From Zychaea mexicana (lineage: Eukaryota > Mucoromycota > Mucoromycetes > Mucorales > Lichtheimiaceae): a DNA stretch of 64,000 nt. Positions 39,782 to 48,435 of the stretch are shown piece after piece. Made by a program: the position numbers and the translations under genes. How positions within the stretch are numbered: the first letter of the stretch is position 1; each line of letters opens with the position of its first letter. The stretch lies in the NCBI RefSeq assembly GCF_025766255.1, contig NW_026516696.1:62001-126000 (forward strand), read 5' to 3'. The notes beneath the pieces were generated by a model that ran no database searches, had not been told where the DNA came from, and worked only from the letters and a program-made list of their open reading frames with translations.

Positions 39782-41180
39782 TGTACTCTATAGTTTTTGT
39801 AGTAGGTGGAAACGTAAAGCGAAAAGAGAGGTAGCCAAGCTGCTTATAATCGGATATTTAACTTGCGGAAGAGAGAAAAGGGCATCGACATGACTATCAC
39901 TACCGCTTCTTATGTATCAGGAGTTGGATCCTTACTTTTTTAACATACCTCGTCTTTTTCTCGTGCTACTTCCGGATGAAATCAATATCATCGATATCAA
40001 TTTTAACGGCTTTCAAACTAAAGATATTCCCTCATTCCTGCATAGAAAAGTGACTGACGAAGCTACTGGACGTTAATGCGAATGATCCACTACAATCATG
40101 CTTCTTTCTTTCTGCGATAGCTTTTTCGCCTCCCGCCAATTACTCTTGTTAGCAAGGTAGTCTGGCATTTTGACCCTTTACGTAATATCTACTTGAAAGG
40201 AGATCGCTTCACATGTTTCTGCAAATATGGCATACTGATCTCACAGTGATAACCCGTTCTGTTACATTGTTGTCATAGATCAATGGGCCTAATAAAAGTT
40301 TTTGCATCTTTAAAAGAAGTCCTTTTCTACCGGAAATAATAAGCTATTGCTATATTGCTCGTTTTGATGTTTTGCAACTCGTAAAGTCTAAAGTCAGATA
40401 TTACAATGTGCGGGTATGTTATATAAATACAAGGACCACATAGAAACGCGATTACTTGAAAGTACATCCAATAGTATATATGTATATGGTAAGATTTGAT
40501 CAGTTGGAACTCAATTGATGTACTTGCATTTTTGGTGAGAAGTACCCGTAATACCAATTTGTATATCAAGATCACTACCACCTTTTACGCCTGTCACTCA
40601 GGCGTAGTTTACGCGTTACAAAACATGTAATGCTCGTAGACAAGTACTGTACAGTACGTATTCAAGCACCGAGTAATAGAAATAATCCATGCAAGTATGT
40701 ACTGGCATTGCTATTCACTCGCTTTATTATAATTTCACAAATGTTGGGCCTCTACTATAAACACATAGTGTGCTTTGTTACAAAGACATGCGAGAAAATA
40801 AACACCAGCGTACCGCACCACAGACCTTCCGAATGCGTCTCTGGTAGCACAGATTCCCAATTGCAGTCAAAGTTTCGTCTTACAGCGCATCGATGCATTT
40901 TACGTATATGTTGTGATTAATTCATGAGTAGGTACCTTTTGCGGTTTGAATCTCCAAAATACTCTTCCAGCTACGTATATTTAGTCGTTGTAGGTCGCAC
41001 ACAGGCTTCTCTTTTACTTAACAAATGTATTGGGGGAAAAACGACCCGTCTTATGACATGGATGTACACAAAGCAAGAAGCACTAAACACCGCTTCGGGC
41101 CTAAACCTTGTGTGTTTTATTTATAAAGTAGCTTCCAATCGCATCTTGCTTTTCTTTCCTTCTTTGTGAGAAACTCAATT
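39782..41180. other. Intergenic, no supported gene
   Basis: About 1.4 kb. Open frames at 40630-40920 and 40924-41169 lack family signals, have no upstream context and are compositionally unlike neighbouring exons. It must contain the promoters of the LisH-CTLH gene (left) and the sulfotransferase-like gene (right). Confidence 0.45.
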
Positions 41181-42082
41181 ATGGCGCCACTTGAGGTTAT
41201 AGGAGCAGCCTACAGTCGTACTGGGACTGATAGTCTGCGCACTGCACTTAACATGCTTGGGTATGTGGATAAAAAGACTATTTTTCTGTTGACGCATTGA
41301 TTCTTATCAACTTGTGGAAATTGGGACCAGATATAAGACGCATCATATGCGTGCCATGTTTGAAGGAAATGGTCACCCTGAACTCTTTGCGCAAGCGTAC
41401 GACAATCCAGAAAAGCCTGCAGATTGGGATCGGATGTATGAAGGCTGGGAAGCCGCTGTAGATTGGTATGTTGGTGATAAGTATATGAGACTTTCAAATC
41501 AGAAAGCGTATCAAAGAACAAAAAAAAAAGGGGGGGGGAAGAGTGGAGACCATGAATAATGAGGTTCCTCGAACAACATTGCATATACAAAAGGACAACG
41601 GGTTTTGTACTAACGTCCCCTTGATATCCAGTCCAACCGTTTGTTTTATTCGCCCGTTGATAGCAGCTTATCCGGATGCCAAGGTCATCCTCATTGAGCG
41701 GGATGCAGATAGCTGGTACGACTCGGTCAAAAACTCCATCTACAAGTTGAGCACAGTGGACGAGGAGGAGTACGACGACTATGGCCGTTGCTTACAGCGC
41801 ATGACCAAGAAGATTTGGATGGATGGCGTGTTTGAGAACGGCGAGTTTATTGCGAACCCCGATGCAGTAAAGGCAAAGTATAAGGCGCACAACGCCTGGG
41901 TGAAAGAATATGTGCCACAGGAACGGTTGTTGACCTTGAACCTAAACGAAGGCATTGGATGGGAAAAAATCTGTGAATTCTTGGGAAAACCTGTGCCTGA
42001 CGAGCCGTATCCGAGAATCAATTCAACCACACAGCTCAATGAAGAGCTTCCACAGCTAATTGATCAATTGAAACCTCAATAA
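41181..42082 (+). CDS. Small P-loop sulfotransferase-family protein
   Basis: Predicted 221 residues in three exons: 41181-41260, 41331-41465 and 41632-42082; phases close. The start PLEVIGAAYSRTGTDSLRTAL holds the PAPS-binding loop (here SRTGTDS, normally GRTGT) of the fungal/animal Sulfotransfer_4 group. It continues KTHHMRAMFEG, a WEAAVDCPTVCFIRPLIAAY segment and YPDAKVILIERDADSWYDS, where Arg-Asp-x-Asp-Ser-Trp is the conserved 3'-phosphate region. The C-terminal part is CEFLGKPVPDEPYPR. Family members are common in fungi with no firm substrate. Cytosolic, no signal peptide. An enzymatic role transferring sulfate is inferred only from the loop. Confidence 0.83.
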
Positions 42083-42603
42083 ATTGGAAAAGGAAGCACT
42101 CTACGAATGTCTGTTCTTTAATAGGTAGTCAATGTGTACTACATTCGTAATATTGCATATTACACACTTGGTGTCTGCTACTGATAAACTTGTAATCTCT
42201 GCAGAGATACGCATTGCAGATTGAGACAAAGATGCACTTGACGTGCGAACCACATGCTAGAGCGAGCTATGACTTGCACATAAACATGAGATGATCATGA
42301 TAAAACTTCTTTCAGCCTTGATTATTAGCTGGGTATCCTTTTACACCTGTAAACGTTTGATCCTAATTGTTGCTAGAAAACAATAAAACTTGTATCACAC
42401 CCTTTAGTTTCACAAGAATATGTTGAGTTATGTGTATGCAGTATCTCACGACAGCCGGAAATTTCTTGAAATTAATGGGTTGCAGGAGGGAGGCACCAAA
42501 TGGGTCGCGTCCAATTATTATTACGCGACACGCGTTTTTATAGGAACTTGAATTAGGCTCATTATCTTTCTTCTGGGCTAATTGAAATATCAATGCAACC
42601 AGT
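42083..42603. other. Intergenic
   Basis: 520 bases, AT-rich, no supported frame. It carries the 3' end of the sulfotransferase-like gene and the promoter of the CENP-M-like gene. Confidence 0.4.
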
Positions 42604-43731
42604 ATGATCCTTCGTCCACGATACACACAGCGCGCGACTCAAGTTCTGGTACAGACACACACACACACACTCTCTCTCTCTCTATTTTTTCTTAAAACTA
42701 TTCAAGCTCGACCTGGTTTGCTAATTACACAAATAATATAAAGCTTGTTGGCCCAGCCAATAGTGGAAAACGTACATTGGCAGATCAACTCATTTCGAGT
42801 CGAGAAACATTTATTTCCTTGTAATGTTTATTTTTTAAATCCCTTTTTCTTTTTCTCACTGTTTTCTAAATTTTAAGCTAATTAGAGGAATTGCTATATA
42901 TGAATGAAAAAACTGTAGAGGCACTGACGAAGAATTATCTGCGACAGCTCTTGATGAACTTGGCCAAGTAGATTTTGTTCTCTTCTTGGTCGACATGACC
43001 AACAAGAACAGTCTGTTGACTTTATATCGTTCATTTGAGCATGTTGCACCTGAGTATCTAACCAATCGTTGTGCGGTCTTGATGACCAAAGGTGAGTAAC
43101 CAACAAGTATCTAAGCAAAGGTGGGGGGGGTTGAAAAAGAAGACAGAGTATTGAATGTCCAATCAAATGTTTAGTTGACGCAGTGGAAGCATGGACACTT
43201 GATGAAGAAAAAGTACAACGTATTATCAATCAATATACCCCTGACATCTACACATTTCGATGTAACCTCTCGGTAAGTCCTTTTGCAACAGATAGTATCT
43301 TTTTTTTTTCTTGCAATTCCATGTATTTAAACGAGTGGGAAAATATATGGAAACAGGATCGCCGAGAACGACAGAAACTGGGTGACCAATTGGCACGACT
43401 TGTTCGGATCAGTACATTGCAACAAAAGAATATCACAATGCCCTTGATCAAAGCGACCACCTACTACAACCATTTGCCATACTCCTCCCGTGGTACAGAC
43501 GAGACCGAATATACCGAAGAGACAGATGACGACAACAGTGGGATGGTATCACAAGCAGGACAAGATGACGCTAGTGGGATGGTATCCGAAGCAGAACAAG
43601 ATGACACTAGTAGGATGCCATCAGATGCAGAACAGGACGGCGATGCAAAACAAGATGACAGGAGTAGAATGTTATCAGAGACAGAACAAGAAGACAATCA
43701 AATACAACAAGAACAAGCAATTCAGGATTAA
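42604..43731 (+). CDS. CENP-M-like small-GTPase-fold kinetochore protein
   Basis: Predicted 255 residues in five exons: 42604-42648, 42744-42820, 42919-43091, 43175-43272 and 43357-43731; lengths sum to 768, clean frame. The model starts MILRPRYTQRATQVL then LVGPANSGKRTLADQL, the beta1/P-loop region. The next core element is VDFVLFLVDMTNKNSLLTLY, followed by LTNRCAVLMTKV, DIYTFRCNL and RQKLGDQLARLVRIS. Order, spacing and residues follow vertebrate CENP-M, a GTPase-fold protein that does not bind GTP and that holds the CENP-HIKM complex together. The P-loop here is GPANSGKR: the GK pair stays but the Ser/Thr after it is Arg. The acidic C-terminal tail (about 190-255) is made of 12-residue repeats. 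Alternative: another degenerate Ras-like protein. Exon 1 is an inference. Confidence 0.6.
42655..42683. repeat. (AC)n(TC)n compound microsatellite in intron
   Basis: Repeat of AC followed by TC directly read; it lies inside intron 1 of the CENP-M-like model and forms part of the pyrimidine tract. Confidence 0.9.
43543..43700 (+). repeat. Coding minisatellite, 36-base units
   Basis: Units start at 43543, 43579, 43615 (expanded by 18 bases) and 43669. Each encodes a variant of Met-x-Ser-x-Ala/Thr-x-Gln-Asp/Glu-Asp followed by a small or basic residue pair. The frame of the CENP-M-like gene is kept throughout, so copy-number change alters an acidic tail only. Confidence 0.85.
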
Positions 43732-43892
43732 GAACCAAAAAAAAAAAAAGTCATGTGGATATTTTGTTAAATAATGAACAAAAAAGTAAATTATGTAGAT
43801 ATTAAACCTAGTTAGAAGGAGCAAAAAAAGGTCATAAAGTACAAGAAATTGCAAATGAAGGGGAAGGGTGTGCACTGTGAGAGAAAGAGCGA

Positions 43893-43914
43893 GTGTGTGT
43901 GTGTGTGTGTGTGT
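43893..43914. repeat. (GT)11 microsatellite
   Basis: Twenty-two bases of GT between the convergent CENP-M-like and Ras GEF genes. Confidence 0.95.
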
Positions 43915-43999
43915 ATACGTAGTGGTAGTGGTGTTGTGTGTAAGTTACTTGTAATGCAAAAATAAGAATAACAAAAAATAGAAAATAAGAAATGAGGTT

Positions 44000-46900
44000 T
44001 TACAAGAATCCAGATTCTTGCAATAGTCGCGTAATTTTCTCGTCTTCGCGCTCTCTAATAATGGGTGTCAGTCATAGAAAAAAAAAAGCGTAGAAAGCAT
44101 CATTTCTTAATTACCTAGGTTCCAATTTCAAGCTTTCATTATACAGCTGCTCCTCGTCCCGCGTGCTTTGCAGATTAGCTTGAATGAAAGACTGAAGCTC
44201 TTCAACCGGCTTCAGACGGTATAATGATGACTGGTATTGCTGAATTTCGCGAATGACTTCGGCGGTCTTTGCGCGTTTGGCGAAATTGATGAGTTCTTTG
44301 GACTTTTTCAAAAAGTTTGGGTTGCCGTCTTCTATGAATGTAAGATCTTGTAGGTAGATGCCGAGGAATGGTATGCAGGGAGGATTGATAGAGTGAATGA
44401 TTGCGCGGTATTCGGTAAAGTTGCGGTTAGCACCCATCAGTTTGCGGATCTGTGACAAGATCTGGTTGGTCCGTGCGCCCACCATTTCCCATGTTCGCTT
44501 CAGACGGCCCACTGAACTATTGTCAAAGGCGGACAGAACTGCCATGCATGTGTTGAAGTTGTTCAAGAGTCGGCATTTCTAGAGAATGATTGTTAAATTT
44601 AACTTTTGTCTCTCTCTTGTGACCTCGGAAGAGGGTGGGAGAAAAGACAGTTGAACTCACCTCGGCTACTTGGACCCAGTATTTGATGACATTGCTACGT
44701 TTCTTAATATCGCTCTGACTCAAAATGGCATCCGAAACCCACGAAGTGACCTCATTACAATACTCGATCGACGCACGGATGTTCACAGCGACCTTGCCAG
44801 TATCATCATTGGTATCACGCGACCACGCCTTATCCAAACACTCCACGGGCCGAATCGAGCTATACAGCTTGAAATCCATAATGGTCAACTGTCGAGCCAT
44901 CTCCAACGGGTCGATATCCATCAACTTGAACTTTTTACGGTTGCGTGGCAAGATCGGTTCGGGAGGATCTGGCAGGGTCAAGACCATCTTTTTGAGCCCG
45001 CCCTGACTTTCATCCTCCTTGCGCATCTTGATCAATCGTTCGAGCTGGTCTGCCGAAAAGCTCAATGTGCTTCGGATGCTTGTGTTTGTGAATTCCTGCA
45101 GTCGATCCAGAATGATGTGGTCGTCCTCGTTATAGTACAGTTCCAGCCAGTTCTTGAGAACGTTAAACACACGCAGTCGGATCAGTTTGAGTTTCTTTTG
45201 CGTCCATGCTTCAGTCTCTTCCTCTGTCATGCCCTCCGGGGGATTCAAGTTGTAGCGTGCTTCCAGCAGATTCAGTAGTTCCATGGACGCGCAGAACGAT
45301 CGGTACGTCAGCAAAAAGGTATTGATAAAGTTCATGTCCAGATAGTCGTGCAGCGTCAGTCGCTCTACCAAGGCAGGCAGCGTGCCGCCCTTGACATAGC
45401 CTTCCATGTTGAATACAATTTCATTCACATCATAGTCGTATTGCAAGTACCATGCTCGTTCGTTCACGGCTGGTTTCGCAGCAGCGGCAACAGCAGCGGG
45501 TGCGTCGTCGCCAAAGAACTTTTTCAATTTGCGCGAGGTAGCCTTGGACGGTGAGCTGGTTGCACCGCCGACTGTCGATTGGCGTTGCGCTGAGCCGCCG
45601 TGATCGCCACTATGAGCACCCACCGAACCTGTTTGTGACGTAGTCGTGGTGGGAGATTCGGGTATCGTGGACGGTGTGCTTGCTTGCGATTGCTGTTTGG
45701 GTTGCTCGAGTTCTGACATGGTATCTGTAGGTAAAGTGCCTTCGTGTGTTGCATTGTCATCTGTACTAAATCCTTCCGCAGCGACGCTTTCGTTTTCGTC
45801 TTCTTCAGCAATGACTGTTTCCATGAGTGCCGGGCTGGATGGTGTGGTTGTTCCTGCCGGTGTCTTTGACAGTGCTGCGTCTTCTCCAGTAGCAGCAGCA
45901 GTAGTAGTAGTAACAGGAGCAGCAGGCGCACCGCCAGCGGACATGCTTACCCGTCGTTCGGTCACAAGTTTACCAACACACGAACAGATATTACGGATCG
46001 GCAAACTTACGCCAGTCGCAGCATGCTCCATGTCTGCCACAATACCCTGTATGGCCACCGTTTCATCCGTCATTGACTGCATGCAGCAGAACAACAGGCC
46101 CAGTCCATCCGAGAGTCGCTGTCGGTCCGCCTTGAGCTCGACCATCAAGGGCGATGCATCGACGTCATTGAAATCGATATCCTCGACAATGCCGATGAAT
46201 TGGGCTGTCTGGTTGGCCAAGTTGCGGAATTGGGTAAACATGAGTGCTGCTAACGAGAATCGTGAGCTGTCCTGGCCGTCGTCGTCGCGTCTGATGCTGG
46301 ACAACATGGCGTCGATCGATTCCTGCATGCTCGTTCCATAGGCTTCCAAATTATCTGCCAAGTCGTTCTGTAACGCGTATTTAGCGCGTTGTTGATGTTG
46401 TTGTTGTTGTTGTTGATTGGCATCGTCTTTACTGTTATTGCTGCCATTTAGGGTACGTTCACCCATGCCTGTTGTTGTTATCAAGGACGGATCCATGTGG
46501 TGTACAGAAACCGGAATATCTTGACACGTGCTGACAAAGTTGCGCACGGCCAACAAGAGTTCGTTTGAATCAGAAAGCATTTTGCTAATGTTTTCGTCTG
46601 CACTGTCTACGCTCAACTGGGAGGACAGGACGAGTTTTGACATGGATGCCATCATGGCCCGATGGTGTGCACGCAGCACCGAGTTTGTCTTGATGTGTAC
46701 CGACTCCTTGTCAATCGTGCCTGAGGTGACGAGCATCATGCGGATTGCATTGACGATGGCAGCAGCGTATGGCATAAACATGGCCTTTTGTGTGTTCTTT
46801 GCAGCGGAATTGAGGTTGTGTATGGATAAGGCAATATGTGCTGACAGTTTGTTCCATGTCAATGGCTCGCTGCTGTCGACGACGGATGTGCGACGTACAG

Positions 46901-48435
46901 AGGCTTGTCGTGAAGGTGAGCGGGGTAATGGTTTGGGTGGGGATTGGGTTGCTGCTGTCTGTTGGAACGGTGGATCGTCAGGCAGAGGCGGTCGCCATGA
47001 TGGATCATTGAGTGACTGTAGTTTGTCCCGCTACAAATACTGCATTAGAAACCCGCGCAAATTCTCTCTCTCCCCCTCTCAACGGCACACCACTCACCAG
47101 TCCATTCGGGGCCTCGATATCGGCTCTATTTAAGGCGGTTGCTTCGGTCACGGTGTTAAAGTAGTATTCTCGTCCCTGTGTGTTGATGCGCTTTACCCAA
47201 GGATGTGGAAGCTGTGTAACCTATCACGACAACACACAACACACAGACAGAAAGGGCGCGGGCACCCGGTAGTAAATTAATTAAATCAACTGATCTACAA
47301 CAGTGTGGAGATAGAGAAATAGGGAGACAGAAAAGCAAAAAAAAAAAGGGGGGGGGGAGGCGGCCCGCGCTTCTTGTTCTTCTTTTCAATTACCTTTTCT
47401 GACGTTGACAGCTCGCCCAATTTATCAAGTGTTGATGGTGTCAGCTGCTGTGCTGTTGGAGGCTGTGGTGGTAATGGCTGGTCGTCCCAAGGCATTCGAC
47501 TATCCACGGATTTAAAGTCAAAATCATCGTCTTCTTCCTCGTCGATCGATCCATTGACGTAGGAAAGACCGTCATCAAGTTCCGATTCTGAGGCATCGTC
47601 CGGATGTGTCGATCGCATCTCGCCCGTCGTGGTGTTGTAATAATAGCAGTCTGTTCCATCCTCTGTCATCTGCAACGTCCAGCTGGGCGGCATCGAGCGT
47701 TGTTGTTGCTGGTAGTGTCTGTCCTTGCTGAACGAACTGGCCGAATCTTTGCGTCCCATTGCTGATCGTACTTGGGTGGATCGATGCTGCTGCTGTGGCT
47801 GTTGCTCCATGATGTCAATGTTGTTGGTATATGGCAAGGAGAGACGATACTCGCTATTTTTTCGTAGTGGAACGCCATTGCGTGTACGAGGCGTGACGAT
47901 ATCCGATTCATCGGAAGTGGCTGACATGTAGCGTGCGTGGGTTGCGGAAGGCTACATGTACATGCATGCGTGAGCGGTGTGTGTGTGTGTGTATGAATTG
48001 GAGAGAAGAGCATGAGGGTTAGAAAGGGGTTGGGATGTGAGAGTAAAGGGAAAGATTGGGAACAATGAAAATTTAAGGTTTTTTCCTTCAGCTTACTTCC
48101 TCGTAGAAAATGTCATCTGTCCCACGTATGGTAGAAGTGTCCTCGTTTTCATAGTCTTCTACTATCTGGACGTAATTACTGGGAAACCATCCGCGGACAC
48201 CTTTGCACCTATACAGAGTCCAAATATCCATTCTATTTTAGTCATACTGACAAGAGAAAGAGAAAGAGGAAAAGAGACGCGTCTAAAATAACAATTACCA
48301 GCCGTCCCACCATCCGGAATCCAACTTGGTCAGGACTTCAATGTAATCACCTTGCTCGAAGCTGAGTGAGGACGGGTCATTCGAGTTGAATGGGTACCGA
48401 GCTTGGACTCTGCACAAGATGGGCACCTTGGACAT
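44000..48435 (-). CDS. Cdc25-type Ras guanine nucleotide exchange factor with SH3 and two WW domains
   Basis: Activates Ras by exchanging GDP for GTP at the plasma membrane. Predicted 1272 residues in seven exons: 48435-48299, 48208-48097, 47951-47394, 47220-47098, 47030-44661, 44578-44115 and 44054-44000. SH3 lies at about 5-62 (ARYPFNSNDPSSLSFEQGDY, SGWWDGWCKG, GWFPSNYV). WW1 is at about 170-203 (PPSWTLQMTEDGTDCYYYN) and WW2 at about 272-302 (LPHPWVKRINTQGREYYFN). The REM/N domain is at about 834-960 (INTFLLTYRSF). The catalytic domain is at about 1010-1240 (IDPLEMARQLTIMDFKLYSSI, NNFNTCMAVLSAF, GRLKRTWE, PPCIPFLGIYLQDL). The middle is helical then Ser/Thr/Gln-rich. An AG after a T11 run lies just 5' of the chosen ATG, so an upstream coding exon cannot be excluded. 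Confidence 0.93.

Follow-up and report, generated by a model that had tools for sequence, protein, structure and literature searches.

The gene described here lies at 42604-43731 on the forward strand of a window of 64,000 nucleotides from the genome of Zychaea mexicana, and sequence comparison gives good support to its being a genuine CENP-M, a subunit of the inner kinetochore that functions in chromosome segregation and is known best from animals. Five exons, rebuilt from their coordinates, are spliced into a product of 255 residues; the introns measure 95, 98, 83, and 84 bases, all four have GT...AG borders, and the frame stays open to a TAA at 43729-43731. The spliced translation is identical in every letter to the deposited Z. 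mexicana protein P0001 (BDB00DRAFT_821564), and the exon chain is thus in line with the gene model on deposit. That entry is listed only as "hypothetical protein", as a pseudogene or an annotation artifact might be; such an origin is hardly credible for a gene whose spliced frame is open from end to end across four GT-AG introns, which was found at a single place in the genome, and which is clearly conserved in five further species. The initial annotation had assigned the gene to CENP-M and the DNA to a mucoromycete on the basis of several ordered segments. All of these segments occur in order in the one spliced chain, and the source organism is a member of the Mucorales (family Lichtheimiaceae).

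The exons, all on the forward strand and identical to P0001, divide the protein as follows. Exon 1 (42604..42648) encodes residues 1-15 with the start MILRP; human CENP-M also begins with an LRP start. Exon 2 (42744..42820; residues 16-40 and part of 41) has GT-AG borders and holds the end of the first strand, the P-loop, and the first helix (in the predicted model, a strand at 12-17 and a helix at 24-33), with the P-loop-like G1 motif GPANSGKRT at 42750..42776 on the forward strand (residues 18-26), in which R replaces the S/T of GxxxxGK[S/T]. Exon 3 (42919..43091), from the end of codon 41 to base 1 of codon 99, encodes VDFVLFLVDMTNKNSLL and LTNRCAVLMTK; its open reading frame (ORF; 42908-43093) reaches 23.8 bits by itself with the Pfam CENP-M family, slightly below the cut-off of 25. 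Within this exon, Leu47 (42935..42937, forward strand) aligns with Leu52 of human CENP-M, at the position of Ras Gln61. The remainder of codon 99 to residue 131 is encoded by exon 4 (43175..43272), which completes TKVD and includes FRCNL, and exon 5 (43357..43731) encodes residues 132-255 and the stop, with the LARLVRIS helix followed by an acidic tail.

The spliced protein matches Pfam CENP-M (PF11111) with 48.6 bits (E 7.3e-13, cut-off 25) over residues 11-159, on positions 15-164 of the 174 in the profile. Four other Pfam families were listed, all below their own cut-offs, including GTP_EFTU (E 0.002), MMR_HSR1 (0.1), and SRPRB (0.11). Among solved structures, phmmer with the single Zychaea sequence ranked human CENP-M first, and a profile of six Lichtheimiaceae proteins (see below) searched against the Protein Data Bank found human CENP-M with an E of 1.3e-9 and mitochondrial Era second with 1.3e-4. 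In both fold searches with the predicted model CENP-M came first and GTPases after it. CENP-M thus stood on top in all three comparisons, the six-protein profile search and the two fold searches. A best match to CENP-M with a GTPase-like fold, which the initial annotation had named as support, was thus observed, with the fold closest to CENP-M; the best profile matches were not to a Rab, Ras, or Gtr-type GTPase, which it had named as refutation.

Human CENP-M (4p0t, 4wau; chain M of the constitutive centromere-associated network structures 7xho, 7pkn, and 7qoo) shares its fold and order of elements with the Zychaea protein. The model of the latter runs through a strand at 12-17, a helix at 24-33, a strand at 39-44, a helix at 51-54, and a strand at 60-66, with switch I and the second strand missing. 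The corresponding spacing in Ras is longer, while human CENP-M has the same short stretch from the first strand to the VDFVLFLVD strand, as well as the LLVG strand. The switch II motif DxxG is also gone (T43, E46, then L47 in the alignment with the human protein), and human CENP-M likewise lacks DxxG and has Leu at the position of Ras Gln61. The deletion of switch I and the second strand has been used to define CENP-M, and a role of the Leu has been described in the same work (PMC4080450).

Iterated searches against about 5.8 billion protein sequences yielded two proteins (E <=1), then six, then five (E <=10); the five matches to the six queries of the third search were all known already, and Rhizomucor P0005 dropped out. 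Six distinct CENP-M proteins were obtained, from Zychaea, Phascolomyces (P0002), Circinella (P0003), Fennellomyces (P0004), Rhizomucor (P0005), and Dichotomocladium (P0006), all of them Lichtheimiaceae; CENP-M of Mucor, Rhizopus, Umbelopsis, and chytrids lies outside this comparison set. Each of the six exceeded the PF11111 cut-off (41.5 to 66.1 bits) with CENP-M as its top family, and the Phascolomyces protein is named "Centromere protein M" by one source.

Several observations weigh against the assignment. Identity to human CENP-M is only 17-20% in the fold alignments, and the single-sequence phmmer match has an E of 0.011. Human CENP-M contacts CENP-I through Leu94 and Leu163 (PMC4080450). 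These residues are not clearly conserved: Leu94 aligns with Thr89, a position occupied by T/V/V/V/Y/Y in the six proteins, with the adjacent Leu88 kept in five of them; Leu163 falls beyond both the sequence alignment and the fold-aligned ranges. Among the six deposited proteins, three are short (Circinella, 139 residues; Dichotomocladium, 143; Rhizomucor, 170), and the Circinella and Dichotomocladium entries, which stop before the last helices, likely reflect gene-model errors. The Fennellomyces protein barely passes the GTP_EFTU cut-off (26.7 vs 26.5), with a CENP-M score of 46.3, and the Dichotomocladium protein comes near it (25.4 vs 26.5), with a CENP-M score of 51.5; these two may be the least degenerate members.

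Such matches, together with the weak GTPase-family scores of the Zychaea protein, the retained GxxxxGK and TKxD, and the GTPases lower in the fold lists, are what would be expected of a divergent ordinary small GTPase of Rab, Ras, Arf, or Era type with a working GTP switch, whose likeness to CENP-M came from a shared fold only. This explanation is strongly disfavoured. CENP-M alone reaches its cut-off in the Zychaea protein and outscores every other family in each of the six, whereas only one of the five relatives is just over the GTP_EFTU cut-off; CENP-M is first in three of three structure and profile comparisons; switch I and the second strand are missing from the model; and the GxxxxGK[S/T] and DxxG of an active GTPase are replaced, in every one of the six, by an R at the magnesium-binding S/T and by loss of DxxG. 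We are highly confident that the protein is a Mucorales CENP-M, most likely an ortholog, with a small-GTPase fold that lacks the switch regions; its role would be structural, within the CENP-H/I/K/M (HIKM) complex of the inner kinetochore.

The nucleotide-binding motifs have been lost only in part. P-loop residues Gly18, Pro19, Ser22, Gly23, Lys24, Arg25, and Thr26 are kept in all six Lichtheimiaceae proteins, so that GxxxxGK is complete throughout, but with Arg (R25) at the magnesium-binding position. All six proteins carry G4 as [TS]K[VI]D (TKVD in Zychaea, S in one); in the guanine motif [N/T]KxD, T can stand for N. The Asp of DxxG is Thr (position 43) in all six, position 46 reads E/E/E/G/S/K, and position 47 is Leu in five and Met in one. 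The absence of a GTP-binding pocket, which the initial annotation had named as support, is only partly borne out: the P-loop glycines, the lysine, and [TS]KxD are retained in all six. Human CENP-M differs here, having GTEDALLQQL and TGAG where the Zychaea protein keeps Gly18, Gly23, Lys24, and TKVD. The loss of P-loop glycines seen in the human protein was not taken as family-defining, because a substantially conserved P-loop has been reported for distant CENP-M members (Basilico 2014; PMC4080450), which the Zychaea protein resembles as far as their residues are known by description. For the same reason a retained P-loop in CENP-M is not itself new; its retention throughout Lichtheimiaceae with a fixed arginine may be.

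Among gap-free columns 8-130 of the alignment, invariant columns make up 7 of 9 in the P-loop vs 25 of 113 elsewhere (Fisher p 0.0012), an enrichment that is only suggestive, because the six sequences are related rather than independent and the motif positions were picked after viewing the alignment. The TKxD block by itself is not enriched (2/4 invariant vs 30/118, p 0.28). It is conceivable, though we consider it doubtful, that CENP-M of Lichtheimiaceae and perhaps of other Mucorales retains a bound guanine nucleotide that acts as a permanent structural cofactor, with both switches and catalysis gone. The GPxxSGKRT phosphate loop and the TKxD base motif would then be under selection, and the arginine would perhaps replace magnesium.

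The Z. mexicana genome (50.3 Mb, 305 contigs) was searched for CENP-A, -C, -H, -I, -K, -L, -M, -N, -T, and Ndc80. CENP-I (C288, 37.1 bits) and CENP-K (C236, 49.4 bits) were each found above the family cut-off at the exon level. CENP-N (C57, 35.5 bits, with neighboring matches), CENP-L (C25, 30.1 bits), and Ndc80 (C263, 90.6 bits) also exceeded their cut-offs. CENP-H gave a mere hint by six frames alone (E 1.68), whereas five joined exons at C255 (L014 532-1593) reached 67.2 bits against a cut-off of 29.9. Six-frame surveys of intron-rich fungal genomes likely undercount genes such as this one. The six-frame search with the CENP-M family itself found no match in the genome although the gene is present there, and the probable cause is its division among short exons. 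With the spliced protein as query, four pieces matched, all at this one locus.

For CENP-T the six-frame search listed six places. Two coincide with histone H3 loci and scored 28.6 and 25.9 bits against a cut-off of 28.1; three more, at 31.8-31.9 bits, exceed the same cut-off and have a sequence that we take to be histone H4. These five were rejected, and the remaining place, C179, was accordingly retested after splicing. With its exons joined it reached 65.0 bits with CENP-T_C against the cut-off of 28.1; the spliced product also narrowly exceeded the CENP-S cut-off (29.4 vs 28). The CENP-T_C profile gave matches in 3 of 14 named controls (E <=10). None of the controls passed the cut-offs for these families, so they provide no positive control. 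CENP-H, -I, and -K, for which the initial annotation had proposed to look, are thus present in the same genome as CENP-M.

Neither CENP-A nor CENP-C was detected in this assembly of unknown completeness. The best six-frame match to CENP-C had an E of 4.0, below the cut-off, which is at the level of noise since the profile gave sub-cut-off matches (E <=10) in 8 of the 14 controls, those printed being bacteria and archaea. Queries with histone H3 and with fission yeast CENP-A reached the same four loci (C68, C251, C276, and C101), two of them unspliced with identical products and two intron-bearing. CENP-A usually differs from H3 at the N-terminal tail and the loop; all four H3-like loci in the genome have the canonical H3 tail and loop. 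The locus at C101, 64-89% identical by exon, was considered as CENP-A and rejected for its canonical MARTKQTARKS tail and uninserted DFKTDLRFQSSA loop. Blank six-frame results are weak evidence of absence, for CENP-C and also for any intron-rich CENP-A, because the same kind of search missed CENP-M and gave only a hint of CENP-H.

The Zychaea protein is longer than human CENP-M (255 vs 180 residues) and has an acidic tail, in which residues 171-255 include 26 D/E and 5 K/R. The predicted local distance difference test score (pLDDT) of the model is below 50 at residues 171-218, 220-237, and 239-246. Tandem Repeats Finder placed a 36-base tandem repeat of 2.7 copies at 43537..43634 (forward strand), within the coding part of the tail. 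The repeat-bearing tail matches Phascolomyces poorly in the alignment. The next gene downstream, on the opposite strand at 44111-47030, has RasGEF_N and RasGEF domains and DUF7783; it has an intron, because the RasGEF profile is split over two ORFs, and is probably a Ras exchange factor. Upstream, at 41181-42082 on the forward strand, lies a gene with a Sulfotransfer_4 domain (133.2 bits for the ORF at 41489-42082), the start of which is a guess, the ATG at 41181. An Rfam scan of 40000-48000 gave no match.

The RasGEF neighbor and the added tail could be read as signs that a CENP-M ortholog has been recruited to another task, such as signaling with the exchange factor, and has lost its kinetochore role. 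This is very unlikely, since every HIKM, CENP-L/N, and CENP-T partner searched for is in the same genome; an exchange factor beside a non-switching pseudo-GTPase is most simply a coincidence, as the proximity of the RasGEF gene to a gene for a GTPase fold likely is.

Family identity, the predicted fold, the gene structure, and the presence of the partner genes are shown by the analysis. By analogy with human CENP-M, the Zychaea protein would most likely bind and stabilize CENP-I and with it the HIKM assembly, on which CENP-T and in turn Ndc80 depend (PMC4080450). It would also help to recruit CENP-T/W to the centromere and, by way of CENP-T/W, the Ndc80 complex. The assembly of HIKM with CENP-L, -N, and -T is probably the main bridge from centromeric DNA to the outer kinetochore, and the path from HIKM to CENP-T may carry the load because CENP-C was not detected. 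Complex formation, centromere location, and the role of this assembly as main bridge are what we infer from parts lists, as is the mechanism as a whole.

Across the 55 Mucoromycotina genomes of one study, CENP-A was reported absent from all Mucorales and Umbelopsidales (PMC9089191). According to the discussion of PMC4080450, metazoans have CENP-M and fungal genomes do not, while its results describe it as lost from most fungi; PMC9252888 also has it missing from fungi or most of them, and the main text of PMC5579357 does not mention it. Which parts of the inner kinetochore outlive the loss of CENP-A, a question to which the gene had been thought to speak, has already been answered for Mucor circinelloides, CENP-M included (PMC9252888); CENP-M is also listed for this species in a table of PMC7729030. 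HIKM is indeed retained in Zychaea, and its CENP-M is a well-supported extra example that extends the report on Mucor (Navarro-Mendoza 2019, taken from reviews), likewise of the Mucorales but of the Mucoraceae, to Lichtheimiaceae, rather than a surprise. The M. circinelloides sequence was not among the protein-search matches, and the two are compared by description only. In the open-licence literature no paper on the Zychaea kinetochore was found, and Mucorales CENP-M was found only in the reviews PMC9252888 and PMC7729030. The kinetochore of Bombyx mori, compared through reviews only, has CENP-K-I-M and CENP-T without CENP-A and CENP-C; the loss in this holocentric insect was independent (PMC7729030).

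If the nucleotide is held as tentatively suggested above, CENP-M of Lichtheimiaceae would stand midway between a functional GTPase and the human pseudo-GTPase, which is empty, and would do so within a kinetochore lacking CENP-A. The retained P-loop raises the question of the order in which the GTPase machinery was lost in CENP-M, and whether nucleotide binding was lost only in some lineages. CENP-M has been called missing from fungi or most of them, yet the genome of this member of the Mucorales encodes it along with CENP-H, -I, and -K, and no CENP-A was detected there. The finding favors the idea that HIKM and CENP-L, -N, and -T, as a portion of the inner kinetochore, can stand without CENP-A and CENP-C, in a family besides that of Mucor.
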